Shown here: positions 6,939-20,539 of the stretch, in pieces
How the letters are laid out: each line of letters starts with the position of its first letter
Position numbering within the stretch: position 1 is the stretch's first letter
Source of the DNA: an uncultured Dorea sp.
GTDB lineage: Bacteria; Bacillota; Clostridia; Lachnospirales; Lachnospiraceae
Direction: 5' to 3'
DNA: 64,000 bases
Assembly (NCBI GenBank): GCA_934307335.1
Contig: CAKRCL010000002.1
Location: 1 to 64,000 of the forward strand
The notes under the pieces: generated by a model
What the model was told of the DNA's origin: nothing
Seen by the model: only the letters and a program-made list of their open reading frames with translations
Databases searched by the model: none
Translations under genes and position numbers: made by a program

Positions 6939-6966
6939 TCATTCAGTTGAGAAAATGTGGGACATG

Positions 6967-7440
6967 TTAGTTTTTCGGGGCATTCATTTTTGTTTGATAG
7001 TTGGATAAAGCATCAAAGACTTTGTGATAGATAACCTGATTTGGATAATATCTGTAGTCTGCGAAAACAGAAATTCCTGTTTTGTAGAAATATTCAAGAA
7101 TGGCAGCAGCACAGCCAGAACTTCTGCTTTCCCCATATTCGCATTGACAGATAATATCCAGTCCGTCATTTTTAGCTTTGAAGATAAATTCTGCTAACTG
7201 GTCAACTTCAGGAAAATAGGTTTCATAGCTCAAGTTGAATTTAGGCAGAACGGATAAATCTATATCATGTACGGCAACGTAAAAAATCCGCTCTGTCTTA
7301 TTTTTATAATCAACAGGGGCAGAGTTTTTATTGTGATAATTATCGGGTGGGTCAAGAAAACTGATAACTGCCGAATTTTTAGGGAAATCCCCTTTGATAA
7401 GCGTTTCAATTGCCTGTCTGGAATAAATACTTACCTGCAT
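6967..7440 (-). CDS. Dual-specificity/tyrosine phosphatase-like protein
   Basis: This 157-residue cytosolic protein has the cysteine phosphatase signature CX5R in CEYGESR, followed by SSG and a helix, as in the P-loop of dual-specificity phosphatases. An Asp-rich turn VAVHDIDLS sits about 45 residues earlier and could supply the general acid. I chose the start MQVSIYS because GAGAGGTT precedes it. It is the first gene inside the left end of the element, and its stop nearly touches attL. Small CX5R proteins are common on Clostridia mobile elements, but the substrate is unknown. Confidence 0.6.
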   Translation of the reverse strand: MQVSIYSRQAIETLIKGDFPKNSAVISFLDPPDNYHNKNSAPVDYKNKTERIFYVAVHDIDLSVLPKFNLSYETYFPEVDQLAEFIFKAKNDGLDIICQCEYGESRSSGCAAAILEYFYKTGISVFADYRYYPNQVIYHKVFDALSNYQTKMNAPKN

Positions 7441-7491
7441 AAAATAACCTCTCTTTCGTGGAATTAACTAGGTGCGACACCATTTATAATG

Positions 7492-8085
7492 TTAATCTTG
7501 TTCTTCAATAATCTTCAAATACTTATATACCGTTGGGATTGAAAGAGAACAAAGTCGTGCTAACTCAGATTTGTTAATTTTCTTGTTCTTGTATTGAGGG
7601 TAATAATGATAAAAAATAGATGGAATATTATCAGTAGTTGTTACGGGTCTTCCGATTGCCTTTCCTTTTGCCTTTGCATTTTCCATTCCGCTTTTTACAC
7701 GTTGGCTTATCATGTTACGTTCCAGTTCCGCAAATACACCCATCATTTTTAACATTCCCTCAGTCATTGGATCAAGTTCTTTGCTACAGTCAACTTCAAA
7801 AGTTCCAAGAACCAGTTTGATATGATTCTTTTTAACAAATTCTATGATTTCGCATAACTGTAAAGTACTTCTTGTAAATCGGCTGACCTCAGTGGCAATA
7901 ATTGTATCTCCTGATTGTACGATATTTAAGAGCTTATCTAATTCTGCACGATTGGTTTTCGTTCCACTTTCATACTCTTTGTAGATTGTTTCATCAGTAG
8001 CACCTTGTTGTTTTAGTTCTCTTACTTGTCGTTCAATATCCTGTAAATTCTCATTTGTAGAACATCTTGCGTATCCGTATATCAT
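7492..8085 (-). CDS. Small serine recombinase (resolvase/invertase family)
   Basis: The product is a 197-residue resolvase/invertase. The catalytic domain begins MIYGYARCSTNE, with the nucleophile Ser after Cys, and includes the conserved EVSRFTRS and EGMLKMMGVFAELER segments. A C-terminal helix-turn-helix (KSELARLCSLSIPTVYKYL) binds DNA. I start at the ATG at 8085, with GGAG 9 bases upstream; a TTG two codons earlier is possible. It is distinct from the large recombinase at the other end and may resolve multimers or invert a segment. I see no clear res or inversion site next to it. Confidence 0.93.
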   Translation of the reverse strand: MIYGYARCSTNENLQDIERQVRELKQQGATDETIYKEYESGTKTNRAELDKLLNIVQSGDTIIATEVSRFTRSTLQLCEIIEFVKKNHIKLVLGTFEVDCSKELDPMTEGMLKMMGVFAELERNMISQRVKSGMENAKAKGKAIGRPVTTTDNIPSIFYHYYPQYKNKKINKSELARLCSLSIPTVYKYLKIIEEQD

Positions 8086-8128
8086 TTGCAATCACTCCTC
8101 GAAAGTTCTTTGAATATATATTTCTTCA

Positions 8129-8407
8129 CTATTTCCAGTATCGCTCAAGTAATCGTAACATATTTTCTCTTCCAACAGGGTTCATTGTATGAATGCGAAC
8201 AGGATAAAAACGACCTGTTTCAGCAAGCCAATCCAATAATTTTATTCCGTCTCCACCGTCATATGCGAAATCGCCTAAATCATGGTCACAGTCAATCAAT
8301 GAAATGGGTTCGTTTGCATGTTCGATTACTCGTTTTGCATCATTAACGCTTTTACAACAGATATACCCATTAGGTGCAGGGCGTATATCATCTAACCATA
8401 TTTTCAT
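8129..8407 (-). CDS. cREC-type receiver-like domain protein
   Basis: This is a 92-residue single-domain protein beginning MKIWLDDIRPAPNGY, with a second acidic cluster DCDHDLGD and the ending HTMNPVGREN. This pattern matches the small receiver-like family described as cyclic-phosphate-processing receiver (cREC) domains, which are predicted to act with RNA-repair or nucleotide-signalling enzymes. I place the start at 8407 because a GGAGG site precedes it; the open frame extends 26 codons further into the upstream gene. It follows the unknown 236-residue gene by 11 bases, so the two are probably co-transcribed. Confidence 0.65.
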   Translation of the reverse strand: MKIWLDDIRPAPNGYICCKSVNDAKRVIEHANEPISLIDCDHDLGDFAYDGGDGIKLLDWLAETGRFYPVRIHTMNPVGRENMLRLLERYWK

Positions 8408-8418
8408 ATTTCCTCCAA

Positions 8419-9129
8419 TCAGCGGTTTTCCCTTATGTGTGTAAATCTTATACCAGCAACCTCCGAAAATGCCTGAAACCACCAATCAACAGGGTCAGCA
8501 TAGGAAGATTCTGTTATAGTCTTTCGTAATGTTGTCTGATATTCTATATATTCTGGAAACTCCCATTCTTCAAAAGGTAATACTTTTTCGATATTGTAGT
8601 AACCCATATGATAGCGGTTGGTTACGTCTTCAAGCGGTGCACATTTCAAATGTAATACATGTTTGTAAGTGTCTCTTCCGTAAGCAGTAGCCATTTGTAA
8701 TGTATATGTTTCTACTGGTACATGGAAAAATCTTCTTGCAGAATTTATATCCCAGTATCCTGTTTGGAAATTGGATTCAATTACTATCAGATGAATAAGT
8801 GTCTGATTGATTAGTCTTTGAGCAATACCATATGACCATTTGCATATTCCATCGTACATATGAATGAGGGTATTACATAAAGCATAATGTGTTTTATCAA
8901 AATCCTGTTGGGTTTCTGATTCAAACAAACGTGGCAGATTTTCAGAAAGAAAAGATTCCGATTTGTACTCGTTTTTGGTATCCTGATTAAACACATTTTT
9001 GCCATGAAAGTGTATCTGTCGCCAAAAGTCACGATAAGAACGATTAACTGCATGGAAAATAATTTGCGAATCTGTGAAAGTTTCTTTTATTCCATAATGG
9101 TTATAAAGCAAAAATAAGTTCTCATTCAT
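8419..9129 (-). CDS. Protein of unknown function (236 aa)
   Basis: I do not recognise this protein. It is 236 residues long, without signal peptide or membrane segment, rich in Tyr, His and Phe, and mainly helical in appearance. It starts at ATG 9129 with AAGGAG 10 bases upstream. It sits directly before the cREC-like gene (11-base gap), which suggests a two-gene functional unit. A region with several nested inverted repeats lies upstream. Its base composition is like the rest of the element. Confidence 0.75.
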   Translation of the reverse strand: MNENLFLLYNHYGIKETFTDSQIIFHAVNRSYRDFWRQIHFHGKNVFNQDTKNEYKSESFLSENLPRLFESETQQDFDKTHYALCNTLIHMYDGICKWSYGIAQRLINQTLIHLIVIESNFQTGYWDINSARRFFHVPVETYTLQMATAYGRDTYKHVLHLKCAPLEDVTNRYHMGYYNIEKVLPFEEWEFPEYIEYQTTLRKTITESSYADPVDWWFQAFSEVAGIRFTHIRENR

Positions 9130-9250
9130 AGAAATAATCTCCTTTGCGTTTTTTCTCTTTCAACGTCGATTGATTATTTATATTGTAAGATGATACTATA
9201 TTACATTCAACCCCTCTGAAATCCGTTAATAATTTCGTAACAATTTGCTG

Positions 9251-9348
9251 TTCAACCTAAACCATAAAAGAAACGGTGGGTTGAATTTCTTTTATGATAT
9301 ATTCAAAAAATATCCATAATCACATTGGATTACAGATATTTTTTGAAT
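9251..9348. repeat. Cluster of nested inverted repeats
   Basis: Three inverted repeats share this AT-rich intergenic stretch: TTCAACC at 9251-9257 with GGTTGAA at 9279-9285; an 11 bp pair at 9263-9273 and 9286-9296; and a perfect 14 bp pair at 9301-9314 and 9335-9348. The first two overlap and exclude each other, so alternative structures are possible. It lies between the YARHG gene and the unknown 236-residue gene, both on the minus strand, and may terminate one transcript or control the next. Confidence 0.5.
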
Positions 9349-9389
9349 GGAAATAACTATAAAGGAAAAGAGATGTTTTCTTTTATATG

Positions 9390-10517
9390 TTATTCATGGT
9401 CTTTTATAAATTGTATATTACTTTTCTCGACATCACTTAACATATCATCTGTAAAGTCTTCTGGTTCTATTGTGCCTGTGTACCATGCCTGTGAATTGAA
9501 ATAGTTCTGCAAGGTTGGATTTGTAAATTTCCTACCATGCCGTGCATAAATTTCATTTCTTGCTAATTCCAGTTGGTCATGGGATAAACCTGAAATATCA
9601 GCAATGGTTAATTCTCTCGATGAACTATCTGGAAGAATATAGGAATCAGAACTGTTATAATCATATTTCGAATCATTTGCAGAATCATTATCCGTGCTAT
9701 TGTATGTATCTGCATAATCATTTGCAAGTTCCCATGAAGTTGCATGTTTTTCTTCAAATTTCATTGTTTCTATCGGCATATATAATCTTTCTGATTCAGT
9801 AATGCTGACAGAAATTGTATTATTTTCAAAAGTCAAAGTTCCTTTAAAAGTTAATCCGTCAGCATCAGACATAAAATCAGCTTTGTTTCCATCAAGTGTT
9901 GCACTAATATTGCCAACTGCATCAAGTCTATAATACCAAAGTGAAAAAGTAATTGTTTTGTCAGTTATACTTTGAATTGTTAATTCACGGTCTTGGTTTC
10001 CCTTTATGTTCCAATATCCTTGATAAACAGATGCATCTATAACATTATCAGGTTCTTCCGTCTTTGTGATATTTGAATCCGTATCTTTTGGAGAGTCATT
10101 TTTATCAATATCTACCGTTTTTTCTATACTCTTTGCCTTAGGTTCATTTTCTTTAATTGCAAACAGTTTATCTCTAAAAGCAAATAATATAATTATGACT
10201 GTCAAAAAACAACTTATGCCAATTATAATACATATCAGTCTTTTTCTATTATTAGAAGATGAGTTCTTTTTTAACGGCTCTTTAGCCAATACAGGTTCAG
10301 TTTGATTGTTTTTAATGGTAGATGGTTCGATTTCCATACCGCAAACAGGACACACTGTATCTTCTTTGTCAAGTATAGTTCCGCAAACAGGACACACTTT
10401 TTCATCATTTATATCTGAAAAATCGTTATGTTCATATTCATCATCTAACTGATAACCACAAACAGGACATTCTTGTGCATCGTTTTCTAATTCTGCACCG
10501 CAATTTGGACAATACAT
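9390..10517 (-). CDS. Zinc-ribbon membrane protein with C-terminal YARHG domain
   Basis: The 375-residue protein starts MYCPNCGAELEN and carries three CPxCG/CPVCG zinc ribbons in its first 65 residues. One membrane helix follows near residues 95-115 (ICIIIGISCFLTVIIILF). The outer part ends in a YARHG domain (ELARNEIYARHGRKF, then a Trp-Tyr stretch), a small extracellular module in Firmicutes. The likely topology is zinc ribbons inside and YARHG outside. It is preceded by GGGGAAG and follows the next zinc-ribbon gene by about 15 bases, so both are probably one transcript. Confidence 0.85.
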   Translation of the reverse strand: MYCPNCGAELENDAQECPVCGYQLDDEYEHNDFSDINDEKVCPVCGTILDKEDTVCPVCGMEIEPSTIKNNQTEPVLAKEPLKKNSSSNNRKRLICIIIGISCFLTVIIILFAFRDKLFAIKENEPKAKSIEKTVDIDKNDSPKDTDSNITKTEEPDNVIDASVYQGYWNIKGNQDRELTIQSITDKTITFSLWYYRLDAVGNISATLDGNKADFMSDADGLTFKGTLTFENNTISVSITESERLYMPIETMKFEEKHATSWELANDYADTYNSTDNDSANDSKYDYNSSDSYILPDSSSRELTIADISGLSHDQLELARNEIYARHGRKFTNPTLQNYFNSQAWYTGTIEPEDFTDDMLSDVEKSNIQFIKDHE

Positions 10518-10532
10518 ATATTCTTCCCCTTA

Positions 10533-11759
10533 CTAATTACAAAATAAATGTTCTCTCTTTTTGAAATAAGTGTAATTTAAGTATATTAGTATAATTACTA
10601 CAATCTGAGAAAGTAGCCAAGGAATAAAAGGACCTCTTGCAACTCTTAACGTAGTGTTATTAGCTATCGCCATTACAGCAACACATACACTAAAATAAAT
10701 TGTCAAAACTTTATTTGTATCTTTTTGGAAATTAAGCAAACGTTTTCTTATCTTTAATGCAACAATTGCTGATGCGACATAGCAAAATGCATAAATAAGA
10801 TAATCTGTTCCAAATCCAACCATTGACATGATAATGATACAAGAAACTACTCCTATACAACTTGAAATCATATCAAAAATCATTCCATATTTTGAAAGGA
10901 AATCATACCATTTCATAGATAGTTCTTGATTATTTGTTCCTGCTGAACTTGTGTTAGTAGCAGAATCAGTAGTATTATTGATTTTCTCTTTTAATGAGCT
11001 TACTGTTTTTTGAGCAATATCTGTAAAATTATCCATATTGATTTTTTCTGTATTTATATTCCCTATATTCGGTAACGGTTTTGATTTTTGATGGACTTTA
11101 AAGGCTTTATAAAATATGGATACTGTTTCAGGGCAAGCGTCAATTAAATAAGACATTAGTTTTTGATCTCCCATAAAATACACTGTATATTTATCCGTAC
11201 CGATATAGTCTTCCAGCTCTTTGAAAATTCCATTCCAATGTACTTCCCGTACTTGAAATGGTTGTATCCATTCATCAATACAGCGATTTTGCAATAATGT
11301 TGTATCAAAGACTTTCCCATTTATTGTAATTCTGGTAGTAAATGGATTTTCCGAGTAAACAATAGTAACTGTATTATTTGTTCCAACTAATTTTACAGGC
11401 TGTGATGTTAAGGCATTTTTTATAATGGAAAAAGATTCTTCATCACTGTCAAATTGTAAAATAAATTCAGTAGAACCAGTAAAATCTTTTAATTCTTCAT
11501 ATAATCCGTTCCATTTGATTCTATTGCTTAAAAATGGATACGCCCATTGTTCAATAGAGATATTTTTTATCCGTGAAGTATCAAATTTCTTTTCATTATA
11601 TGTGATTTTCAGCTCTCCATTGTCCTTTGTATATGTGGCTTTAACTCTTTTTAGATTTTTGGTTGTGATATGTTGTTCTGTTTCTTGAATTTTTGCACCG
11701 CAGTTACGACAGAACTTTGCATTTTCCCCAAGCTTATATCCGCAGTTTTTACAATACAT
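10533..11759 (-). CDS. Zinc-ribbon protein with C-terminal membrane helices
   Basis: The product begins MYCKNCGYKLGENAKF with a double CxxC zinc ribbon (CKNCG, CRNCG). A middle region holds two related modules, each with a strand-rich segment followed by WxxPF and a W-N-G motif (IEQWAYPF with RIKWNGLY; IDEWIQPF with EVHWNGIF). At least three hydrophobic helices form the last 130 residues. I start at 11759 rather than 15 codons upstream because the ribbon then begins the protein, as in its neighbour. The specific function is unknown; pairing with the YARHG protein suggests a membrane sensor or envelope role. Confidence 0.8.
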   Translation of the reverse strand: MYCKNCGYKLGENAKFCRNCGAKIQETEQHITTKNLKRVKATYTKDNGELKITYNEKKFDTSRIKNISIEQWAYPFLSNRIKWNGLYEELKDFTGSTEFILQFDSDEESFSIIKNALTSQPVKLVGTNNTVTIVYSENPFTTRITINGKVFDTTLLQNRCIDEWIQPFQVREVHWNGIFKELEDYIGTDKYTVYFMGDQKLMSYLIDACPETVSIFYKAFKVHQKSKPLPNIGNINTEKINMDNFTDIAQKTVSSLKEKINNTTDSATNTSSAGTNNQELSMKWYDFLSKYGMIFDMISSCIGVVSCIIIMSMVGFGTDYLIYAFCYVASAIVALKIRKRLLNFQKDTNKVLTIYFSVCVAVMAIANNTTLRVARGPFIPWLLSQIVVIILIYLNYTYFKKREHLFCN

Positions 11760-11761
11760 AT

Positions 11762-12595
11762 TTATCCTTCTTTCTTTTGAGTACAAAATTCTCTGATTAC
11801 GCATATATCACATTTTGGATTCCTTATAGTACAAATTTCTCCATACCCGTTTGCACAATACATCCATAAGAGATAGTCAATCTCTGCACAATGTTTTCCC
11901 ATTGATTCAGCTATTGATTGAACAATATCCATAGCTTCATATATTGGAACAGTTTCATATTTTGAACAGCCTAAGATTTTACTTCCGAGAATTCGTCGGA
12001 TATGTCTGTCAGGTTTTGCAATATCATACCCAACATTCCTTAAATACTCCGCATTGAGTGCTTCTCCCATTTGGTTCATTTTGAAAAAGGATTCTGGAGA
12101 AGACAGTTTTTCAATTAACCCTTTCAAAGTAGAATCTTCGGCTATGTATTTTTTATAAAAAGAATCAATACTACCATACTGATTTTCAATCTTGGACAAT
12201 AATGGAATATTGTTTTTAATTAAAGCCTCCATCTGCTTTCTTGTACTTTGTGTTGCTCCACAGATTTCCTTTATTCTTTCAGTAAAGAAATCAGATGAAC
12301 TGGATAAAATATATTCCATGTTGTAATTATGAAACAGTTCATCTATAGGAGTGATTTTTCCGGTTGAATCATCGATCCCATCAACAACTCTGTCCCATTT
12401 AGCACCTGAACTTAACATGGAATAAATCATTCCACGAATGTGGTCTTCAATAGTGAAAGTTGCTTGCTGCTCTCGCCTGTCAATCTGTTTCTTGATAAAT
12501 GAGTGTTCCCATAGCTTTGTTTCAGGTAATTTGTTATTCAAATAATGCTCTATTGCATCAACAGCATGGACTACGGTTTGTTTACTGTAAGACAT
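11762..12595 (-). CDS. HhH-GPD DNA glycosylase-like protein with EndoIII-type Fe-S loop
   Basis: This is a 277-residue protein. Its C-terminus has the exact spacing C-X6-C-X2-C-X5-C of the endonuclease III/MutY [4Fe-4S] loop (CTIRNPKCDICVIREFC). Upstream, NVGYDIAKPDRHIRRIL matches the end of the helix-hairpin-helix region with its catalytic Asp (PDRH, compare PVDTH in EndoIII). These enzymes remove damaged or modified bases. I start at 12595 with AAAGGCGG upstream. It diverges from the XRE regulator over a short shared promoter region. A modified-base-specific role on a mobile element is possible but is inference. Confidence 0.78.
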   Translation of the reverse strand: MSYSKQTVVHAVDAIEHYLNNKLPETKLWEHSFIKKQIDRREQQATFTIEDHIRGMIYSMLSSGAKWDRVVDGIDDSTGKITPIDELFHNYNMEYILSSSSDFFTERIKEICGATQSTRKQMEALIKNNIPLLSKIENQYGSIDSFYKKYIAEDSTLKGLIEKLSSPESFFKMNQMGEALNAEYLRNVGYDIAKPDRHIRRILGSKILGCSKYETVPIYEAMDIVQSIAESMGKHCAEIDYLLWMYCANGYGEICTIRNPKCDICVIREFCTQKKEG

Positions 12596-12637
12596 TACAA
12601 TCCGCCTTTCTCTGTATATGTATAAGCTAAGTTTAAA

Positions 12638-12650
12638 ACGCATTATGCGT
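12638..12650. promoter_or_regulatory. Candidate operator between the glycosylase and XRE genes
   Basis: An inverted repeat ACGCA-TTA-TGCGT lies in the divergent intergenic region, and TGCGTATT recurs 17 bases on (12667). A -35-like TTGTCA at 12652-12657 and TATAAG at 12673-12678 could be the xre promoter, although the 15-base spacing is short. The XRE protein is the natural candidate to bind here. Confidence 0.4.
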
Positions 12651-12727
12651 ATTGTCAACTCTATTTGCGTATTATAAGAAATAGAAAGAGTTCTTCATAT
12701 AGTATTGGAATATGGAGGAAGAATACT

Positions 12728-13060
12728 ATGAGTTTTGGAGATAACCTACGTGCTTTAATTGAAGAAAGAGACATTACCCAAAAAGAACTTGCAAAGAAAT
12801 TAAATATTGCACCATCTACATTGGGGAGTTATGTCCAGAATGTGCGTGAACCTGATTTTGCCACATTGAAAATGTTTGCAAATTTTTTTGATGTTTCTAC
12901 AGATTATCTGTTAGACCATTCAGTAAAAGAATATTCTACCCGTCAGGAAAATGAGCTGTTGCGAGTATTCCGTTCTTTAAGCGAAGAACAACAGTATATC
13001 TGCATTGAACAGAGCAAAGTATTTATGTTGGTAAATCAAAAAAGAAAAGAAGAAATATAG
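12728..13060 (+). CDS. XRE-family helix-turn-helix regulator
   Basis: This 110-residue protein begins MSFGDNLRALIEERD and has a Cro/C1-type HTH (ITQKELAKKLNIAPSTLGSYV) at about residues 15-60, followed by a short helical tail. The ATG at 12728 has GGAGGAA 7 bases upstream; the frame is open for 21 codons more but without a ribosome site. It probably represses its own promoter and that of the divergent glycosylase operon, keeping the left half of the element quiet. Confidence 0.9.
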   Translation: MSFGDNLRALIEERDITQKELAKKLNIAPSTLGSYVQNVREPDFATLKMFANFFDVSTDYLLDHSVKEYSTRQENELLRVFRSLSEEQQYICIEQSKVFMLVNQKRKEEI

Positions 13061-13264
13061 AAATCAGGATACAGTTTAAATGATGTATAGGTTTTTGGAG
13101 AGGACAGAGGTCTTCTCCATTTCTTTTACCAGTCTATTGGTAAAATGGTACAATGAACCAGTTATCCACCTTAGATGTCAGATTTTCATAAATTTTCTGA
13201 AATACCTTCTATTTATATGATTGAGAATATAATCAATTTACATCAGGGAAGGAAGATGCGATTT

Positions 13265-13465
13265 ATGAAAAGAGTTAAATCCAAGATTTATTCAACTCAG
13301 GAATTAGACAAAAGAAAAAAAGCTATATTTTCTACACAAGATATAGAACAGATTTTAGGGATTCTTTATGATATGACAGGGCATGATATGAGTTTTGAGA
13401 AACAAGATGATGGAACGTTGTCTGTAACCATTGATGGAACTGTGTATTCTGTTGATACGGTATAA
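13265..13465 (+). CDS. Small protein of unknown function
   Basis: A 66-residue protein, mainly lysine-rich at the start and ending in a strand-rich DGTLSVTIDGTVYSV. The start is uncertain: ATG 13265 is 9 bases from GGAAGGAAG, while ATG 13256 is too close to it and 13175 has no ribosome site. It follows the XRE gene on the same strand and is followed by a clear terminator, which supports a real transcription unit. Confidence 0.6.
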   Translation: MKRVKSKIYSTQELDKRKKAIFSTQDIEQILGILYDMTGHDMSFEKQDDGTLSVTIDGTVYSVDTV

Positions 13466-13498
13466 TAAATAATGAGTGGTATGTTAATCAGATATCAG

Positions 13499-13527
13499 GC
13501 GGAGAGATTTTTGCTCTCCGCTTTTTT
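13499..13527 (+). terminator. Intrinsic terminator
   Basis: A perfect 8 bp stem, GCGGAGAG (13499-13506) with CTCTCCGC (13514-13521), is followed by six Ts. It ends the xre and small-protein transcript, 34 bases after the stop codon. Confidence 0.9.
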
Positions 13528-13594
13528 AGGGGGAATTATATGCATTAGATAACAAAATTTGCAAAATCAATGGTAATTCGTTCTCTCACTATGG

Positions 13595-14467
13595 CTATTT
13601 TCCTATTCTGCCGTTTGTTAGTCTAATTTGTTTTATTATTGCTTTTCGTGGATTTTTTCTAGGCTTGCAGTTTAACATATTGTCAAATAGTTCATCGAAA
13701 CTGATGGAATCCGTAAAAGCGTTGATATAGTTACAGTAATTTTCAATGTAATGTGATGATTCATTTGGTTTCTCATGTGTTACTGTTTGAAAATGTTCAT
13801 AAACCATTCGAGCATAAATTGCATTATAGCGTTCAATTCCACGAAATTTTGTAATATATCCGTCTATTTGAGAACTAACGGTATAAAGTCCACATGCACG
13901 TTTTAGAATACTTCCTTTTTTGATATTACTCAGAATGAATTCGTCATAATATTTTTTCGTATATTCTGGTAATTCACATAAACGAATATGGTCGATTTTT
14001 CCGTCATAAACCTCTACTGCTGTTATAATATTGGTATTTTTATCAACATATATATCAATCTTTCCACGAAGCGGGCGATTTATTTGCTTCTTATCGTGTG
14101 TAAACAGTTCAGGTTTAATCGTTTTCATTATATTCAAACGAGTACGATTACTTCCTATTTCCAAATCTATATTTTTCAATTCTGTATTTAAACCAGAAGC
14201 TGTTGCAGAATTACCACATGAGCCGACATATTCAATTGCGGCAAACCATTGACGCATAGATAAATGTGTATGCTCAAAAACAGTTCCTGTAGTTATTGTT
14301 GACTGATATCCACATTGCTGACATTTATATTTATATGGATCAAGTAGCCAATATTTTTTACATTCGCATTTAGGGCAAAAAAAGCCATCTGTCCATTTCT
14401 TTTTGAAAAGATAGTTTCTACAACTTTCTTCCGTTGGAAAACGTTTATTAAATTCAGTCCAGTCCAT
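13595..14467 (-). CDS. IS1595-like transposase-family protein, probably non-catalytic
   Basis: The first 100 of 290 residues match the IS1595/ISXO2 N-terminus: a zinc ribbon (CPKC then CQQCG) followed by a helical DNA-binding segment (TGTVFEHTHLSMRQWF). The region that should hold the DDE catalytic triad is diverged: instead of the usual DE-[TS]-Y-[VI]-GG there is RGKIDIYVDKNTN, and the second Asp position reads KRACGLY. GAGGA precedes the ATG. It starts 47 bases from the first repeat of the array and is divergent from the reverse transcriptase. I saw no terminal inverted repeats around it. It may be a decayed transposase or a repurposed DNA-binding protein. Confidence 0.65.
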   Translation of the reverse strand: MDWTEFNKRFPTEESCRNYLFKKKWTDGFFCPKCECKKYWLLDPYKYKCQQCGYQSTITTGTVFEHTHLSMRQWFAAIEYVGSCGNSATASGLNTELKNIDLEIGSNRTRLNIMKTIKPELFTHDKKQINRPLRGKIDIYVDKNTNIITAVEVYDGKIDHIRLCELPEYTKKYYDEFILSNIKKGSILKRACGLYTVSSQIDGYITKFRGIERYNAIYARMVYEHFQTVTHEKPNESSHYIENYCNYINAFTDSISFDELFDNMLNCKPRKNPRKAIIKQIRLTNGRIGK

Positions 14468-14513
14468 ATTGTATCCTCAACTTTCTTTCGTAATTGCAGT
14501 AAACACTGATAAG

Positions 14514-14690
14514 TTCTTAAAGTGAATGATTTTCGCTTAATCTTTATAGAGTATATATAAAAAATAAATATCTTACAAAACACCAAAAAATATCCCTCAA
14601 GAGGGGCGGGGCAAATTATGCCTTAAAATATCCCAAATCCGATTGCCTGCACTTGCAGAACTTTTGGTAAGCCAACCATACATTGGCAGG
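14514..14690 (+). repeat. Array unit 1 (long, diverged type)
   Basis: Contains AAAGTGAATGATTTT, a TATAGAG box, GAGGGGCGGGG, the mini-ORF ATG-CCT-TAA at 14618-14626, a CTGC-ACTT-GCAG stem-loop and a 5 bp GCCAA/TTGGC hairpin before the next unit. Confidence 0.85.
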
Positions 14691-14852
14691 TTTTTAAAGT
14701 GAATGATTTGTATTAAATCTTTATAGAGTAAAAAACAAATATCTTACAAAATATCCACTAAGAGGGGCGGGGCAAACTATGTCTTAAAATATTCAAGCAT
14801 CAGCCTGTTTGCACTTGCAAAACTCTTGATGATTATATTATACATCAACTGG
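14691..14852 (+). repeat. Array unit 2 (long, diverged type)
   Basis: Close relative of unit 1, with the TATAGAG box, GAGGGGCGGGG, the mini-ORF ATG-TCT-TAA at 14779-14787, a TTTGC-ACTT-GCAAA stem-loop (its stem differs from unit 1 by paired changes), and a perfect TTGATG/CATCAA hairpin before the next unit. Confidence 0.85.
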
Positions 14853-14990
14853 TTCTTAAAGTGAACAATTTTATTACTAGGGTTATATATAACAAGAGAT
14901 ACAAAAAACATCTCTTAAAAACTACAACTAAATAAAGCTCAAGCAAAGGGGGCGGAAAATTATGCCATAAAATGCTCAACCTGGATGTGG
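14853..14990 (+). repeat. Array unit 3 (138 bp type)
   Basis: Contains the hairpin AAGAGAT/ATCTCTT (14894-14900 with 14910-14916), the AAAGGGGGCGG block and ATG-CCA-TAA at 14962-14970. The unit ends in GCTCAACCTGGATG. Confidence 0.88.
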
Positions 14991-15128
14991 TTCTTAAAGT
15001 GAACAATTTTATCCACAGGGTTATATATATCAAGAGATGCAAAAAAAACATCTTATAAACTACAACTAAATATATCTCAAGCAAAGGGGGCGGAAAATTA
15101 TGCCATAAAATGCTCAACCCGGATGCAG
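14991..15128 (+). repeat. Array unit 4 (138 bp type)
   Basis: Contains GAGATG/CATCTT (15034-15039 with 15049-15054, one G-U pair), the AAAGGGGGCGG block and ATG-CCA-TAA at 15100-15108. Close to unit 3. Confidence 0.88.
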
Positions 15129-15265
15129 TTCCTAAAGTGAACAATTTTATCTCTCGGGTTATATATTACATGAGATGCAAAAACATCTCATAAAACTACA
15201 ACTAAATAAAGCTCAGACAAAGGAGGTGAAAAACTATGCCATAAAATGCTCACCCCAGATGCAAG
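15129..15265 (+). repeat. Array unit 5 (137 bp type)
   Basis: Contains a perfect 8 bp hairpin ATGAGATG/CATCTCAT (15170-15177 with 15184-15191), a full-consensus AAAGGAGGTGA at 15219-15229 and ATG-CCA-TAA at 15236-15244. Confidence 0.88.
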
Positions 15266-15416
15266 TTCCTAAAGTGAACAATTTTATCTCAATGGTTATA
15301 TTACATGAGATGTGAAAAACCATCTTATGAAATTACAACTAAATATATCCCGAGCAAAGGAGGTGATAACTATACCATAAAATATTAAATCTCAGATTTT
15401 CGTACTTGTAGAACTT
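15266..15416 (+). repeat. Array unit 6, leading into the reverse transcriptase
   Basis: Contains a 9 bp hairpin CATGAGATG/CATCTTATG (15304-15312 with 15321-15329, one G-U pair) and AAAGGAGGTGA at 15356-15366. Here the mini-ORF start is changed to ATA (ATA-CCA-TAA at 15372-15380). The tail with GTACTTGTAGAACTTTTG matches units 1 and 2 and abuts the RT ribosome binding site. Confidence 0.85.
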
Positions 15417-15434
15417 TTGAAAGGAGATAGCAAA

Positions 15435-16805
15435 ATGAACGCTAAAACGTATGCTTCTACTAACAGACCTACCTGTTGGAGTGAAATTGATTTCGCTTTT
15501 GCGGAAAAGTCAGTTAAAAAGCTGCAAAGACGAATTTACGTCGCTTATGTACAAGGCAACACCCGTAAATGGAAAACTTTGACCGAATTCATGTTTCACT
15601 CGTTCTATGCAAGAGCCTGTGCTGTCAAGCATGTATGTTCAAGAAAAGGCAAAAAAACAGCAGGTGTAGATAATGTCCTATGGCTGACGGATACTGATAA
15701 ATTCAATGCAATTTTCAGCTTACGTTTACGAGGATATAAACCACGTCCATTGAAGCGAGTTTATATCAAAAAGCCAAATGGAAAGTATCGAACTCTTGGA
15801 ATTCCGACTTATAAAGATCGTGCAATGCAAGTTCTTTATAAATTCGCAATAGAGCCAATTACTGAATTACATGCCGATGAACATTCATATGGTTTCCGAA
15901 AAGGACGTAGTGTTAAATGTGCAGTGTCAAAGCTAGAGGAGTATTTATCTGAAAATCCTGATTGTGAATATGTGTTGAAATCAGATATAGAATCTTGTTT
16001 CGATAACATTAGTCACGAATGGTTATTGGATAATTTTCCAATAAAGCCAGAACTTCTTCGGAAGTTTTTAAAATCAGGATTTATAAAAGATAAATCTTAC
16101 CATACCTCAAAGAAAGGAATACCGCAAGGTGGCAGTGTATCCAGTTGTTTATGCAATTGGACATTGGATGGTATGGAGGGTGTTTGTCGAGAAAGACTTT
16201 ATCAATGGAAAGCTTTATGCGGCGTTAGTAACCGCAAAAGCGCCCTTTCGGGCATTGATGTTCCTTTCGGCATAGATGCTGAGCCTTTCGGTGCAGATGT
16301 TGCGCCTATTGGTTCTGATGTACGGGGTATTCTTATACGCTATGCTGATGATTTTCTCTTTATTACTAATACACTGTCGACGTTATTACCGAGAGCAGAG
16401 TTGCTTCCGAAAATTGATGATTTTCTTTCTACCAGAGGGTTGAAACTCTCAAAAGGAAAAACAGCCCTGTGCAAAGTCACGGATGGATTTGTTTTTCTGG
16501 GATGGAGAATCTGTAAACAAAATGGAGAGATAAAATGTTTCCCTGCTCCTAAGGCGATTGAATCGCTGAAGGAAAAGACAAAAGACATTTTATTGGACGA
16601 ATCTATTTCTAGTGAAAAAGAAAAGATAGGAAAAATTTGCCAAGTGATAAGGGGGTGGCTGTCATTTTACTCACTGGCATCTTATCCGTTCTTTTTAGAA
16701 ATGGAATTCGACTTCATGGAGTTTATAAGTCAATTTTCAGGAAGACAACAACAGCTCGCGAAAGAAATTCAACAAATATTTTCCGATTGGAGTGAGTGTG
16801 TATGA
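15435..16805 (+). CDS. Group-II-intron-like reverse transcriptase without endonuclease domain
   Basis: The 456-residue RT starts at ATG 15435 with AAAGGAG upstream. An N-terminal domain 0 (KLQRRIYVAYVQ...KKTAGVDN) leads into fingers (YRTLGIPTYKDRAMQ), the SYGFRKGRS block, the first catalytic Asp in LKSDIESCFDN, the template-grip GIPQGGSVSS and the active site RYADDFLF, then GLKLSKGKT and VFLGWRI. A short helical thumb or X-like region (VIRGWLSFY) ends the protein; no HNH nuclease is present. The loop before YADD is built of heptapeptide repeats. No intron domain V or intron boundary is visible, and the structured array sits just 5', so I read it as a group II-like RT recruited to another task rather than an intron protein. 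Confidence 0.9.
   Translation: MNAKTYASTNRPTCWSEIDFAFAEKSVKKLQRRIYVAYVQGNTRKWKTLTEFMFHSFYARACAVKHVCSRKGKKTAGVDNVLWLTDTDKFNAIFSLRLRGYKPRPLKRVYIKKPNGKYRTLGIPTYKDRAMQVLYKFAIEPITELHADEHSYGFRKGRSVKCAVSKLEEYLSENPDCEYVLKSDIESCFDNISHEWLLDNFPIKPELLRKFLKSGFIKDKSYHTSKKGIPQGGSVSSCLCNWTLDGMEGVCRERLYQWKALCGVSNRKSALSGIDVPFGIDAEPFGADVAPIGSDVRGILIRYADDFLFITNTLSTLLPRAELLPKIDDFLSTRGLKLSKGKTALCKVTDGFVFLGWRICKQNGEIKCFPAPKAIESLKEKTKDILLDESISSEKEKIGKICQVIRGWLSFYSLASYPFFLEMEFDFMEFISQFSGRQQQLAKEIQQIFSDWSECV
16248..16325 (+). repeat. 21 bp tandem repeats inside the reverse transcriptase gene
   Basis: Four imperfect units encode SGIDVP, FGIDAEP, FGADVAP and IGSDVR. They form the variable loop between the QGG and YADD motifs of the RT. 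The repeat keeps the reading frame and shows silent changes, so it is probably a real part of the protein. Confidence 0.8.
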
Positions 16806-17227
16806 AAAGAATAATGTATATTGACGTTGAAATATGTCCCGTGTGTGGAACGTTAAATAAAGATTTTTTACTGGATGGTAATTACTTTTATCTTTGTCAC
16901 TGCTGTGGACAGTTTTTTCGTAGCTTTTCTGATGGTAGAGAGCCTATTGTTGGTATTACTTTTTATCCAAAAACTATTCGTTTTAATCGACAGCTAAATG
17001 CATTAAGACAAAATTGGTATAAATTACAAGAATTAAAAATAATGAAACATCACGAATATAAATTTTCAAAGAATGACTATGACGAGGTCATTGATTACAG
17101 TTCAGACAGGAAAGATGTAAAGCCTAGTCCGAATCCCGAAAATAATTTACTTGAATATTATGATACTGTTTTTAAACGAAAGAGAAAAAACAAAGTGATT
17201 TCAGATGGATATATATTACAAGACTAA
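16802..17227 (+). CDS. Zinc-ribbon protein coupled to the reverse transcriptase
   Basis: The 141-residue protein begins at ATG 16802, which overlaps the RT stop codon (ATGA), so it is probably translated by ribosomes finishing the RT. Its first 45 residues hold a zinc ribbon, CPVC...CHCC, followed by aromatic residues (GQFFRSF). The remainder is charged and lysine-rich with no known domain. Tight coupling to the RT suggests a partner that binds RNA, DNA or the RT itself. The family is not one I can name. Confidence 0.8.
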   Translation: MKRIMYIDVEICPVCGTLNKDFLLDGNYFYLCHCCGQFFRSFSDGREPIVGITFYPKTIRFNRQLNALRQNWYKLQELKIMKHHEYKFSKNDYDEVIDYSSDRKDVKPSPNPENNLLEYYDTVFKRKRKNKVISDGYILQD

Positions 17228-17359
17228 AAATTTCCAAATGGTATTCACTTTTATGATGATTCAAAAGATGAAGCGGATTATTCAGATTGTCTTTCTCCGT
17301 GAGGAAACTTTCTCGAAAAATAAAGGCATCAACAATATGAATTTATTGGAGGTACCGAT

Positions 17360-17662
17360 ATGAAACAAGAAATTTCTAAATTCCCATCTTTTAATCACTC
17401 TGGGAAAGAACATATAATAAACACATTTACATCTAAGGAATGTGACAAGTCTGCTGAAAATAAAGATGTAAAAAGTAATCTATTTATGGAGGCAAAATTG
17501 AAGAACGTGTCACATAAATGTTTAGAAACAGAAGTGAATGGTTTCAAAGTTATATTGGATTTTCCTAAACAAAACAATTGCGAGATGGAAGAAACACAGT
17601 TGAAAGAAGTAAAACAAATTATGTTAACGCTTCTAAAGGAACAGACAACACAGAAAATGTAA
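17360..17662 (+). CDS. Small protein of unknown function upstream of the recombinases
   Basis: A 100-residue hydrophilic protein with a GGAGG site 8 bases before ATG 17360. It has no membrane segment or recognised motif; a strand-rich ETEVNGFKVILDF segment is followed by a C-terminal helix. Its last bases (CAGAAAATGTAA) recur at 18193 before the full recombinase, showing that its 3' end was part of the duplication there. Position just ahead of a large serine recombinase would suit a directionality or regulatory factor, but nothing in the sequence proves this. Confidence 0.65.
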   Translation: MKQEISKFPSFNHSGKEHIINTFTSKECDKSAENKDVKSNLFMEAKLKNVSHKCLETEVNGFKVILDFPKQNNCEMEETQLKEVKQIMLTLLKEQTTQKM

Positions 17663-18165
17663 CAGAACTATAAAGAAATACAGATTACTGTACCCTGATA
17701 TCTAAGGAGGATAATCAAATGAAAAATATGAAAGAAAACACTAAAAAAACAGTAAGAATTTTACTTTGCGCAAATTCAACCTATCAGTCAGAGACAGATG
17801 AAACTTTATCTATTCAGCGTGAGCTTATTATAGATGAGGTAAAGAAACATAAAAATTGGATTTTAGACTCAAAAGAATATTTTGTAGAAAATAACGTGGG
17901 CTATAAAGATTCAGTAGCCGACAGAAATGTTTTACAGGAAGCTTTGCGTGATGCTGAAAACAGAGAATATGACATTTTAGTGTCAGATAAAGATGACCGA
18001 CTTGGGAGAAGAATGTTGGAGATTCCAATGAATATTATGTCTTTGAAACGGTTTGGAGTAGATGTGTATACCGTCAAAGATGGACTGCTGACTCCTGACA
18101 GTGGAGATGTTATGTGGTTGTTAACGGTAGCCATGCAATATGGAATGGTAGAAAAAGAGATTTAG
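17650..18165 (+). repeat. Duplicated segment, copy 1 of a recombinase catalytic domain
   Basis: This stretch, from the 3' end of the small protein gene through the recombinase catalytic domain, is repeated with divergence at about 18190-18700. Both copies share CAGAAAATGTAACAGAA, then a GGAGGATAATYAAATG start region and long runs of near-identical codons. It is a tandem duplication of about 510-540 bp. Confidence 0.85.
17719..18165 (+). CDS. Truncated serine recombinase catalytic domain, probably inactive
   Basis: The 148-residue product equals the first 148 residues or so of the full recombinase at 18259 and stops where the recombinase domain would begin. The active-site segment LLRVSSDQQ of the full copy reads LLCANSTYQ here: the Arg and the expected nucleophile Ser are replaced by Cys and Asn. 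The DDRLGRRM arginines are kept. It has a full AAGGAGG start site, so it is likely expressed. It could be a decaying duplicate or an inactive partner that forms mixed dimers with the active enzyme. Confidence 0.8.
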   Translation: MKNMKENTKKTVRILLCANSTYQSETDETLSIQRELIIDEVKKHKNWILDSKEYFVENNVGYKDSVADRNVLQEALRDAENREYDILVSDKDDRLGRRMLEIPMNIMSLKRFGVDVYTVKDGLLTPDSGDVMWLLTVAMQYGMVEKEI

Positions 18166-18258
18166 ATATAGAGATGCATGTTCATACAATCCAGAAAATG
18201 TAACAGAATTACAACGTAATACAGATGGTCGTATTTCGAAATAGAGGAGGATAATTAA

Positions 18259-20004
18259 ATGAGAAATATGAAAGAAGATACCAAAAAGAGAGTAAGAATT
18301 TTACTTCGTGTAAGTTCTGACCAACAGTTGGAAGCAAACGGAGATTTATCTATTCAGCGTAAGCTTGTTGTAGAGGAAGTGACGAAACATGAGGAATGGA
18401 TTTTAGATTCTAAAGAATATTTTGAGGGAAGTAACAGTGGTTATAAGAATTCAGTAGCTGACAGAGATGTTTTACAAGAAGCTTTACGTGATGCAGAAAA
18501 TAGAGAATATGATATTCTGTTGGCATATAAAGACGATCGACTTGGGAGAAGAATGTTGGAAATTCCAATGTATATTAAGTCTTTGAAAGAGTTTGGGGTA
18601 GATGTTTATACCGTCAAAGATGGACTGTTGACTCCTGCCAATGGAGATGTTATGGAGATGCTTAAGTTAGCCTTTCAATATGGAATGGCAGAAAAAAGTA
18701 GTTCTGATACTGGTATGCGAGTAAGGGACACTGCAAAAAAACTTGTGCAACAAGGGAAATTTATGGGCGGTAAAGCTCCTTATGGATATAAACTAGAATA
18801 TTCGGGAGAATATAGTAAGCATCAGAGGGCGTTGAAGCATTTAGTTATTGTTCCAGAACATGCAGAAGTAGTGAAATATATCTATAAACTTTCATTATAT
18901 AAAGAGTATGGTTCAGGGAAAATAGCAACAACATTAAATTTAGATAATAGATATAAAAATTTAGCTCCAAATGATGTGTGGAAAAGTGGTACAATTACAA
19001 GTATTCTTACTAATCCGATTTATGCTGGATATACTGCATATGGAAGAAGACAACATACTGCTGGTAGATATCGTTCTCTCTCACAAGAGGATTGGATTAT
19101 TGCTGAAAAGCCAAATGATGAAATTACTATTATTGATCGGGATATGTGGGAAAAAGTTCAAATCAGTCGTCAGAAACGAGGAACAAAGTATCAAAAACAG
19201 CCATGGAATGAAACGGCAACTGTTATTTCACGAAATGACGGACAACTGGCTTTGATTGATGTCGCCTATTGTGGTTATTGTGGACGAAAACTGACCAACG
19301 GTACAAAGTATGATTACTGGACTATAAAAGGAACTGGGGAACGTAGAAGTTCTCAGAAAAGTATTTATAAGTGCCAAAATGTATGGCAAGGTGTTCCGCA
19401 TGAAAAAATGAAGCAGATTCGTTCTGATAAAATAGAACCTATCGTATTTAAAAAATTATCTGAGTATGTCGGACGATTACAGGAAGATGAAAATATATTT
19501 GAACAGATTTTAGGAAATCAATCTGTTGAAAAGAAACAACAGGAGCAGCTTCTTGTACGTGAAAAAAGAAAGTTACAGGAAATTGAAAAAGATATGAATA
19601 TTCTAAATGATGCAATTCCAAAAGCAATTACAGGTACATATCCATTGTCGTTGGAAGACCTTGCAAAGAATATTGAAAGGCAAAAAGATAAAGCATCGAA
19701 ACAGAAAGCTGTTGTTGATGAGGTGGAAACAAATATAAAAAATCTTTCAGTGAGTCAGGAGGATTGGGAAAATTTATATCATAATCTGCCAACGTGGCAA
19801 GATATCTTTATGAATGCAGATGTTGCAACAAAACGTGTACTGGTAAATAAACTGATTGAACGGATTGATATCAAAGATGATACAGTTGTAATTCATTTCA
19901 AAGTAGATTTAGACCACTTTTGTCCCCAACCCAGAATGACCAATTACGATGGGGTATCGCAATCAAGGTTACGATTTTACCATTACCTCTTCCACTGCAT
20001 TTGA
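18259..20004 (+). CDS. Large serine recombinase (integrase of the element)
   Basis: This 581-residue enzyme should integrate and excise the element at attB in the sleC-like gene. Domains in order: resolvase catalytic domain (RVSSDQQ, residues about 1-150), recombinase domain (GKAPYGYKLEYSG to NPIYAGYTAYGRR), zinc ribbon (CGYCGRKL with a later Cys in YKCQN), a coiled coil (EKKQQEQLLVREKR) and a C-terminal part ending at attR. GGAGG precedes the start. The crossover falls within codon 566, so the last 16 residues are encoded by host DNA; in the excised circle the same frame would instead read 28 different residues to a stop at 6968-6970. Confidence 0.96.
   Translation: MRNMKEDTKKRVRILLRVSSDQQLEANGDLSIQRKLVVEEVTKHEEWILDSKEYFEGSNSGYKNSVADRDVLQEALRDAENREYDILLAYKDDRLGRRMLEIPMYIKSLKEFGVDVYTVKDGLLTPANGDVMEMLKLAFQYGMAEKSSSDTGMRVRDTAKKLVQQGKFMGGKAPYGYKLEYSGEYSKHQRALKHLVIVPEHAEVVKYIYKLSLYKEYGSGKIATTLNLDNRYKNLAPNDVWKSGTITSILTNPIYAGYTAYGRRQHTAGRYRSLSQEDWIIAEKPNDEITIIDRDMWEKVQISRQKRGTKYQKQPWNETATVISRNDGQLALIDVAYCGYCGRKLTNGTKYDYWTIKGTGERRSSQKSIYKCQNVWQGVPHEKMKQIRSDKIEPIVFKKLSEYVGRLQEDENIFEQILGNQSVEKKQQEQLLVREKRKLQEIEKDMNILNDAIPKAITGTYPLSLEDLAKNIERQKDKASKQKAVVDEVETNIKNLSVSQEDWENLYHNLPTWQDIFMNADVATKRVLVNKLIERIDIKDDTVVIHFKVDLDHFCPQPRMTNYDGVSQSRLRFYHYLFHCI
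19934..19975. other. attR, right junction of the element
   Basis: The crossover GT is at 19954-19955. The attP arm GAATGACCAATTACGA (19934-19949) is the inverted partner of the arm at 6890-6905. Host sleC-like sequence resumes with TATCGCAATC. In the circle the two arms would flank 4 + GT + 4 bases symmetrically. Confidence 0.8.
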
Positions 20005-20539
20005 CCATAAATGGATTCCCGAACGGAACATTTATGATTCCATTTCTATCATTGTTGATGAATTATTTGCCGACTATCTTTCCCGCCCAAATGTAAAACA
20101 ACCAATTCTTACCCAATATTGTGATGGCAGGCAAGTTCAATGTAGCGGTTGGATGACACAATGGGGCTCGAAATCATTAGGCGACCAGGGATATACACCA
20201 ATTGAAATTCTCCGTTATTATTATGGAGATAACATGTACATCAATACTGCAAAAGCCATTTCTGGTATTCCTGCTTCCTGGCCAGGTTATGACCTGTCTG
20301 TAGGTTCTACAGGCGATAAAGTTCGCCAAATGCAAGAGCAGCTCGCCGTAATTGCAAAAGCTTATCCTGCTATTCCTAAAATTGATGCAGATGGAATTTA
20401 CGGTCCTGCAACAGAAGCTGCTGTACGGAAATTTCAATCTATTTTCGGATTGCCTGTGACAGGTATTGTAGATTATCCCACTTGGTATAAAATCTCTGAA
20501 ATCTATGTGGGCGTATCAAGAATTGCAGAATTATCCTGA
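19955..20539 (+). CDS. sleC: SleC-like spore cortex-lytic enzyme, 3' part
   Basis: These 194 codons continue the frame broken at 6884, beginning YRNQGYDFTITSST. They hold the rest of the catalytic region (QYCDGRQVQCSGWMTQWG, ILRYYYGDN) and a C-terminal peptidoglycan-binding domain (SVGSTGDKVRQMQEQL to YGPATEAAVRKFQ). In the present arrangement there is no proper start: an ATG at 19949 with no good ribosome site gives only a fragment, so this half is silent unless excision occurs. It is collinear with the 5' part and shows no decay, which argues for recent insertion or for selection to keep it restorable. Confidence 0.85.
   Translation, partial: YRNQGYDFTITSSTAFDHKWIPERNIYDSISIIVDELFADYLSRPNVKQPILTQYCDGRQVQCSGWMTQWGSKSLGDQGYTPIEILRYYYGDNMYINTAKAISGIPASWPGYDLSVGSTGDKVRQMQEQLAVIAKAYPAIPKIDADGIYGPATEAAVRKFQSIFGLPVTGIVDYPTWYKISEIYVGVSRIAELS

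Follow-up and report, generated by a model that had tools for sequence, protein, structure and literature searches.

What is a tandem array of six repeats doing directly in front of a reverse transcriptase gene? The question is raised by a contig of an uncultured Dorea sp. (Lachnospiraceae; GenBank assembly GCA_934307335.1, contig CAKRCL010000002.1), of which the first 64,000 nucleotides were analysed as a whole and are called the window below. A sequence-only reading of the window had described six imperfect noncoding repeats that run into the gene of a group II-like, endonuclease-free reverse transcriptase (RT) with a coupled zinc-ribbon gene, and had proposed that the repeats are hairpin units, transcribed as structured RNAs for the two proteins to bind or copy. 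We find that the RT-zinc-ribbon operon is real and is a new variant, at the level of a lineage, among the group II-like RTs; for the array, the likeliest function is that of a cis-acting control leader. The module consists of the following features.

14512..15400, plus strand: six-unit noncoding array (repeat searches, Tandem Repeats Finder)
14512..14682, plus strand: unit 1, with the 3' tail ACTTGCAGAACTTTTG at 14651 (repeat search)
14689..14844, plus strand: unit 2, with the 3' tail at 14813 (repeat search)
14851..14983, plus strand: unit 3 (repeat search)
14989..15122, plus strand: unit 4 (repeat search)
15127..15258, plus strand: unit 5 (repeat search)
15264..15419, plus strand: unit 6, with the tail at 15404 (repeat search)
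15435..16805, plus strand: endonuclease-free group-II-type RT of 456 amino acids (Pfam, NCBIfam, tree, structure model)
16263..16321, plus strand: coding repeats of about 21 bp in the RT insert before YADD (Tandem Repeats Finder)
16802..17227, plus strand: C4 zinc-ribbon protein, overlapping the RT stop codon (domain reading, tblastn, motif)

The coding part was found as first described, a YADD- and QGG-bearing RT followed by a zinc-ribbon gene. The RT frame is open from the ATG at 15435 (an alternative in-frame TTG lies at 15417) to the stop at 16805, and the zinc-ribbon start overlaps this stop in the ATGA at 16802-16805. Both RVT_1 (3e-33) and RVT_N (7.6e-23) are matched above the Pfam cut-off, and the active site YADD occupies residues 303-306. 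The maturase domain GIIM reaches 18.0 bits, below its cut-off of 23, and TIGR04416 reaches 252 against 300; thumb-like helices are present in the structure model. No nuclease or D-En (HNH) domain was found in the domain scan and the protein ends after the thumb region, in line with the proposal that the RT is endonuclease-free; some true group II introns also lack a D/En domain. The structure model (mean predicted local distance difference test score, pLDDT, of 74) has its nearest folds in group II maturases, 8fli_B (Foldseek E 7.6e-25) and 6me0_C, and a profile search of PDB sequences was also nearest to 6me0 (461 bits); these maturases we take to be from Thermosynechococcus. Close relatives of the RT (e.g. 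P0014-P0016 and P0018-P0021) carry other, variable and partly repeat-like inserts before YADD.

The lineage was placed with a search of 5.8 billion proteins, in which 7998 candidates were scored and 7185 of them matched; the best 120 of these were used. One of the proteins, P0001 (93% identical to the window RT), represents 329 member sequences. The tree of 126 rows contains the window RT, those of eight other loci (L014 was not included) and the 117 proteins longer than 380 amino acids from the best 120 matches. In this tree, made by a quick method with midpoint rooting, no bootstrap and long-branch warnings, 59 of the 62 short rows are set apart from a group made up of the 64 long intron-type rows, all of them, with three short ones, which may be fragments; the separating branch has support 100 and length 0.55. 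The window RT belongs with the short (about 410-460 amino acids), endonuclease-free RTs. Close relatives are rare in whole genomes: the window RT as query gave 6/397 and 1/58 and sister RTs gave 8/300 and 7/394, each count with its own E limit and with intron-type open reading frames (ORFs) among the matches. Viral contigs yielded two relatives (38-39%), both at loci with a group II intron D1-D4, and further searches of viral contigs yielded none.

No intron was detected around the gene, as the earlier description had implied. Rfam gave no family at gathering score anywhere in the window, and permissive thresholds returned only unrelated families, far below their cut-offs. Since D1-D4 and D5 found no match over 13000-18300 even at E <= 10, nor over the array at E <= 5, a hidden group II intron was rejected. 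The same library detects both domains at L002, L006, L009 and L034-L037, where in L034-L037, which are full-length relatives, both reach the gathering score, and one of the two domains at L001, L012 and L038. Neither was found at L003, L004, L005 and L014, nor, at E <= 1, in L017, L018 and L022, which are pieces of L004, L005 and L014; L047-L050 and L058 lay outside the Rfam intron search.

Ten endonuclease-free RT loci were compared, i.e. the window, L003, L004, L005, L014, L047, L048, L049, L050 and L058. The family motif of the zinc ribbon, CPxC...CxxCGxF...GI...RQ...L..L....H, occurs next to the RT in the window, in L003 (twice) and in L058, and the genes of these three loci find one another by reciprocal tblastn (E 1e-8 to 4e-4), which supports the idea of a coupled partner. 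In the rest of the ten loci tblastn gave no match at E <= 0.05. No such C4 ribbon lies within 3 kb past the RT at L004, L047, L049 and L050, the sequence past the RT is short at L048 (437 bases) and L014 (1266 bases), and at L005 a double ribbon of another kind follows 1.9 kb past the RT. The three zinc-ribbon loci lie within one 42-row group of the tree (support 99). We infer that the zinc-ribbon protein binds nucleic acid and acts together with the RT; its structure model (pLDDT 52) was too poor to use.

Six imperfect noncoding repeats do lead into the RT gene. The anchors TTYYTAAAGTGAA lie at 14514, 14691, 14853, 14991, 15129 and 15266, with a spacing of 177, 162, 138, 138 and 137 bp. Tandem Repeats Finder called units 3-6 (14852-15383; 3.9 copies of 138 bp, 83% matches, score 659), and in a direct-repeat search one 45-nt family holds all six units, the other five being 60-89% identical to the reference copy. 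The copies have diverged widely, units 1-2 from units 3-6. Even so, 49 of the 136 columns of the unit alignment are invariant, and the longest invariant run, of 9, was matched in 25 of 5000 column shuffles. Each unit contains a palindrome GTTC-N7-GAAC, which in units 1 and 2 carries C-to-T changes that still permit G-U pairing, and a G-rich Shine-Dalgarno-like stretch with a mini-ORF position shortly 3' of it. In five of the six units this position is a start-stop mini-ORF (ATG CCA TAA, ATG CCT TAA or ATG TCT TAA), and in unit 6 it reads ATA CCA TAA; from the start of the palindrome to the mini-ORF start codon there are 89-110 nt across the units.

The array is a local feature. Among the ten RT loci it is present in the window only and absent at eight; L003 could not be assessed because an IS21-like insertion removed the 5' end of its RT. 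At the eight loci no direct repeats of at least 20 nt were found 5' of the RT, and the unit model gave no significant match, so the array was rejected as a part of the RT family's system, contrary to what had been proposed. The test of a covariance model on homologous loci had the same outcome: the six-unit model recovers its own units with 89-154 bits, by construction, and with a limit of E <= 5 it had no further match, whether in the window or at 20 other loci. The homologue comparison set beforehand was thus divided in its result, for the array does not recur and the zinc ribbon does, at three of the ten loci; with homologues lacking one or the other, the array is to be seen as local and the zinc ribbon as accessory. 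The unit model R1 gave no match in 392 genomes of G001's order, a zero that lacks a positive control because the window's own genome is not in the set. Against plasmid records the array DNA had one match, which is the RT leader block at an intron-type ORF in Anaerococcus; against phage records it had none, and an exact search of viral contigs with two array strings gave 0 and 0.

The other loci have different arrangements in front of the RT. At L004, L005, L014, L048, L049, L050 and L058 the RT is preceded by a small ORF with SKEQA or a similar string, and a small ORF is also found downstream of it; the SKEQA-type ORF is absent from the window, was not called in L047 and was not recognised in L003. 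A divergent IS1595-like gene is present in the window, in L004 and, in a shorter form, in L047, and L005, L048, L049, L050 and L058 have other divergent genes, two of which were tested and gave no Pfam family above cut-off. In our reading, the divergent genes are putative regulators and the small proteins putatively helical. The RT leaders of L005 and L014 (6400-7040) are 99% identical in differently named genomes, and both lie downstream of transfer-messenger RNA (tmRNA) genes; a recent transfer and a tmRNA integration site are therefore likely. In L058, read in reverse, the RT leader and first codons have a second, degenerate copy (by eye) at about 6870-7019, upstream of the RT start, which is another duplication of the RT 5' end in this lineage; no direct repeat of at least 20 nt was called there.

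Tentatively, and as something close to an even call, we read the six-unit array as a tandem amplification of the RT-zinc-ribbon operon's own 5' control leader, within a 13-kb element. A unit is taken for the operon's control region because it has a counterpart at L004 and because the RT-proximal tail recurs in units 1, 2 and 6. This tail, ACTTGCAGAACTTTTG or nearly so, continues in unit 6 into the ribosome-binding site and start codon of the RT; in the sister loci L047-L050 the same block forms the conserved part of the RT leader, and it resembles AGAATTTTTGAAAGGAG in the full-length relatives. As to the counterpart, a palindrome scan of the loci found all six units and position 5686 of L004 (two mismatches), beside the divergent IS1595-like gene, the stretch common to L004 and the units being TGGTTCnTAAAGnGAAC...TTTTTA; the other six matches outside the array all have three mismatches. 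When the regulator-side intergenic region of L004 was compared with the units, its best-unit score was reached in 2 of 300 shuffles and its summed score in 0 of 300. Within the 14 kb of the L004 locus the unit model matches best at 5687-5781 (11.5 bits, E 0.65), a stretch that covers the palindrome, GGGGG and the sequence up to the ATG of the small ORF preceding the RT; this start codon lies 92 nt from the palindrome start, as compared to 89-110 nt in the units. Over 11 loci the match has an E of 7.2, not significant alone and one of 12 matches at E <= 10. The model scores better in L063 (E 0.12, 0.21 and 1.2), L048 (E 1.1), L058 and L050, and the L048 match (6883-7004) also sits between regulator and small ORF. 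It is therefore position, not score, that favours the L004 match.

If the array is an amplified leader, the small ORF would have shrunk to the start-stop mini-ORF, and each unit would bring an operator-like palindrome, a leader, a G-rich Shine-Dalgarno-like stretch and a mini-ORF. Regulator binding at the palindromes and ribosome loading on the mini-ORFs would then determine the level of RT transcription and translation, and the translationally coupled zinc-ribbon protein would be set by the same control. The array is predicted to set the amount of RT made, and its RNA may also be a substrate of the RT. The module as a whole would be cargo, most likely a defence-type RT that makes complementary DNA (cDNA) from some RNA partner.

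Several observations weigh against this interpretation. Six copies are many for a control region, and promoter signals are no more frequent in the array region than expected (22 found, 23.5 expected from shuffles). The palindrome match is supported by one other locus only, and the N-pattern used to search for it was designed after L004, with the two differing positions left open; in 10 genomes it gave two matches, one of them at the L004 RT locus, and the reversed control gave one. At L047 a short IS1595-like gene occurs without the palindrome, and genome G909 has a full-length IS1595-like gene with no adjoining RT and no exact match to the pattern in the genome. The shuffle comparison of units and regions covered 12 regions with two measures, and the regions next after L004 are the L049 leader (5 and 9 of 300), L047 (10 and 83) and the L050 leader (19 and 82). 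By nhmmer, the units had no significant match to the sister RT leaders (best E in the array 8.3). A defence role is assumed while the NCBIfam defence models are far below their cut-offs (Drt3a 42.5 against 200, Drt2 32.2 against 390, the retron models likewise) and the best padloc match is the generic RT model (1.6e-41), followed among the named DRT models by RT_UG17 (4e-18); padloc gives no cut-offs. Finally, a hairpin in units 3-6, H2, and the conservation of blocks outside the palindrome suggest retention of an RNA and not of DNA alone.

The last point leads to the alternative in which the units are transcribed as repeated structured RNAs, bound and copied by the RT with its zinc ribbon, the partner RNA having been multiplied. 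We consider this possible but rather unlikely. Bacterial RTs of such sort commonly have an RNA partner, and the clear hairpin H2 has z-scores of -4.0, -1.9, -5.3 and -3.7 in units 3-6. Units 1-2 are without it, and the earlier description as hairpin units needs correcting in that the units are not uniform. Pairing is possible in every unit for the regions H1 and the short H3, with pairing-preserving G-U changes and with GGC/GCC, GGU/GCC and GGU/ACC in H3, and conserved blocks lie outside the palindrome. On the other hand, H1 alone does not fold better than shuffles (share as good 0.08-0.53), and H3 relies on different G's in units 1-2 and in units 3-6. The whole-unit fold of the plus strand has z-scores of -0.8 and -0.2 in units 1-2 and of -1.6 to -2.6 in units 3-6, and the opposite strand folds about equally well (-0.6, -0.5, -2.8, -1.8, -3.2 and +0.2). 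When the H2 arms were permuted, 12 of 24 arrangements were as good, the array holding too few compensatory changes for this test to have power. The consensus fold calculated for the six units is weak, and its covariation term is positive.

A further argument for a partner RNA comes from the outgroup sisters, which have a single covarying hairpin 5' of the RT. This two-helix hairpin around UGUGYRCRYGA was found at L047, L048, L049, L050, L005 and L004. In its alignment 74.2% of the cells pair, compared to a shuffled mean of 66.8 (6 of 500 as high) and 23-61% in slid versions; 5 of its 11 pairs have changed on both sides (134 of 500 shuffles have as many), and its covariation score is 0.394 (16 of 500 as high), the outer stems of L004 and L005 being out of register in the MAFFT alignment. 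The hairpin model R2 finds the hairpin at RT loci only: it matches L004, L005, L014 and L047-L050, six of which are its training loci and L014 a near copy, and in 196 genomes its sole match is in G003, at its RT. At E below 0.5 it gave no match in the window, L003 (where the region is lost), L058, L063, L064 and the introns of L034-L037, and within the array it reaches 1.7 bits; by nhmmer, too, homology between the units and this hairpin is not significant. This and the lack of arrays at any other of the RT loci compared speak against copies of a partner RNA, and the palindrome, its place and the L004 counterpart favour a cis-acting control leader at least as well.

The hairpin and the zinc ribbon are distributed differently. 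The hairpin is present at seven loci without a seen zinc ribbon (with little downstream sequence at L048 and L014), of which those in the tree, all but L014, lie outside the 42-row group, and of the three loci with the zinc ribbon the two that could be assessed have no hairpin. One could picture an RT system with a six-copy partner-RNA array, in which the intronless, group-II-derived RT and its zinc ribbon load onto and copy small hairpin RNAs, each with a start-stop mini-ORF, as phage-directed cargo and in which the ancestral hairpin was lost where the zinc ribbon was gained; this fuller picture we hold to be doubtful.

Less probable again is that the array is a decaying by-product of old duplications of the RT leader, arisen perhaps by replication slippage or through the RT itself, with no present function. 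The degenerate second leader with first codons at L058 would fit such an origin, as would the wide divergence of the copies and the lack of an array at any sister locus. Against it stand the invariant blocks across these diverged copies, the mini-ORF kept in five of the six units, and an RT and a zinc ribbon that are open and conserved. That the RT is the maturase of a degenerate or trans-acting intron, with the repeats as its remnants, is very improbable: the RT is nearest to group II maturases in sequence and fold and shares its leader block with true introns, but the intron domains that L034-L037 show are missing, GIIM stays below its cut-off, and the lineage stands apart on its own well-supported branch.

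The amplified leader, as we tentatively read the array, is part of an integrated element that interrupts a host gene, whose N-terminal part ends near 6884 and whose C-terminal part resumes near 19967.

6885..19958, no strand: integrated element of about 13 kb, ends approximate (host gene parts on both sides; L003 split correspondingly)
6210..6884, plus strand: N-terminal part of the host gene (66.5% to the split gene in L003; breaks after ...RVYTEW)
6967..7440, minus strand: dual-specificity-phosphatase-like protein of 157 amino acids (PF00782 20.9 bits, below the cut-off of 33.5)
7492..8091, minus strand: small serine resolvase, element backbone (PF00239 3.5e-36; 75-77% homologues in L004, L005 and L049)
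12728..13060, plus strand: XRE-type regulator (HTH_3 4.9e-14; 63% homologue in L005)
13595..14467, minus strand: IS1595-type zinc-ribbon gene, divergent from the RT operon (PF12760 35.3 bits, cut-off 25.4)
17360..17662, plus strand: 100-amino-acid protein between RT module and recombinase (37.9% homologue at the corresponding place in L003)
17719..18165, plus strand: partial copy of the N-terminus of the neighbouring large serine recombinase (PF00239 4.5e-10; not full length)
18259..20004, plus strand: large serine recombinase of 581 amino acids (PF07508, PF00239; 68% homologue in L003)
19949..20539, plus strand: C-terminal part of the host gene, with peptidoglycan-binding domain (PF01471 3.8e-16; 83% to L003)

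L003 (Mediterraneibacter catenae) has the same gene interrupted at the equivalent site, and the element there carries a large serine recombinase, the 100-amino-acid protein, two zinc-ribbon frames and an RT that is cut short. The insertion at 6041-7042 of L003, which we read as IS21-like (its Pfam match, to an integrase core, falls just short of the cut-off), removes the RT's 5' part. Behind it come the two zinc-ribbon frames, one of which, the first, lacks a common start codon. A megablast search of the element against plasmid records gave no match. The resolvase was found at E <= 1e-85 in 4 of 220 genomes, two of which (G003 and G851) are RT loci, and in the other two no RT adjoins it (RVT_1 is without any match in G802, and in G909 its only match is on another contig). 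Since resolvase elements thus occur without an adjoining RT, the RT is disfavoured as the core of the element and the module is more likely cargo than backbone or control. Of the two roles that the sequence-only reading had left open, phage defence and control of the element, it is accordingly cargo that is favoured over element control.

The IS1595-type gene gave no DDE domain match in the Pfam scan, and a terminal inverted repeat of IS1595 was rejected as the identity of the palindrome: outside the array the window has no copy with up to 3 mismatches. A similar gene of 329 amino acids (L064, 16156-17145, by eye) lies on an RT-free element, so this protein occurs apart from the RT module too. 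The same RT-free element holds a gene similar to that at 11762-12658 of the window (by eye), whose product has the iron-sulfur motif of endonuclease III and weakly matches the padloc model OGG. Genes similar to the phosphatase-like one adjoin the resolvase in L058 and L064 (by eye), and very long collagen-like repeat proteins are encoded on related resolvase elements in L049 (2315-5593) and L063 (5931-9326).

How does the RT compare with known systems? With the group II intron RTs and maturases (6me0, 8fli) it shares YADD, QGG, RVT_N, the thumb-like helices and the nearest sequence and fold; it differs by the missing intron RNA domains and endonuclease, the maturase match below cut-off, the overlapping zinc-ribbon gene and the tandem leader array. 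Group II-like RTs without intron RNA are known as G2L1-5, of which G2L3-5 had no known role in 2015 (PMC4424553); these RTs were later reclassified (PMC8934634). G2L1 and G2L2 are CRISPR-associated, adjoining or fused to cas1. The window RT matches the padloc model Cas1_IIIb (2.4e-33) over residues 18-246, and therefore with its own RT part; the Pfam scan of 13 element and host-gene proteins gave no Cas1, no search aimed at CRISPR having been made. G2L4 is, like the window RT, an intronless RT related to group II RTs, and its structure 9d4s was found by Foldseek (E 2.7e-12). G2L4 is marked by YIDD and repairs double-strand breaks (PMC4244168, PMC12337344), whereas the window RT has YADD and an operon partner. 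The G2L3/UG10 RTs likewise have no intron RNA and a maturase-like region; their members have V for A in YADD (PMC4244168), which the window RT keeps. Retrons, DRT2, DRT9 and DRT10 resemble the module in that an RT works with a noncoding RNA; they differ from it in having one such RNA rather than a six-copy DNA array. Retron RTs have a VTG motif in domain 7 (PMC4244168), and none was found by eye in the 456 amino acids of the window RT. Among the matches listed from literature mainly outside subscription journals, there was no RT with such an array or zinc-ribbon partner.

RTs that serve other purposes, such as CRISPR spacer acquisition and end joining, have arisen from group II introns. In the lineage described here no intron is detectable; it has a leader RNA or partner proteins of its own and is carried as cargo of serine-recombinase elements. 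It provides a natural series that starts with the intron and passes through the single hairpin leader and the zinc-ribbon partner to the leader array, and this series lets the step from a ribozyme-bound maturase to another kind of RT be examined.

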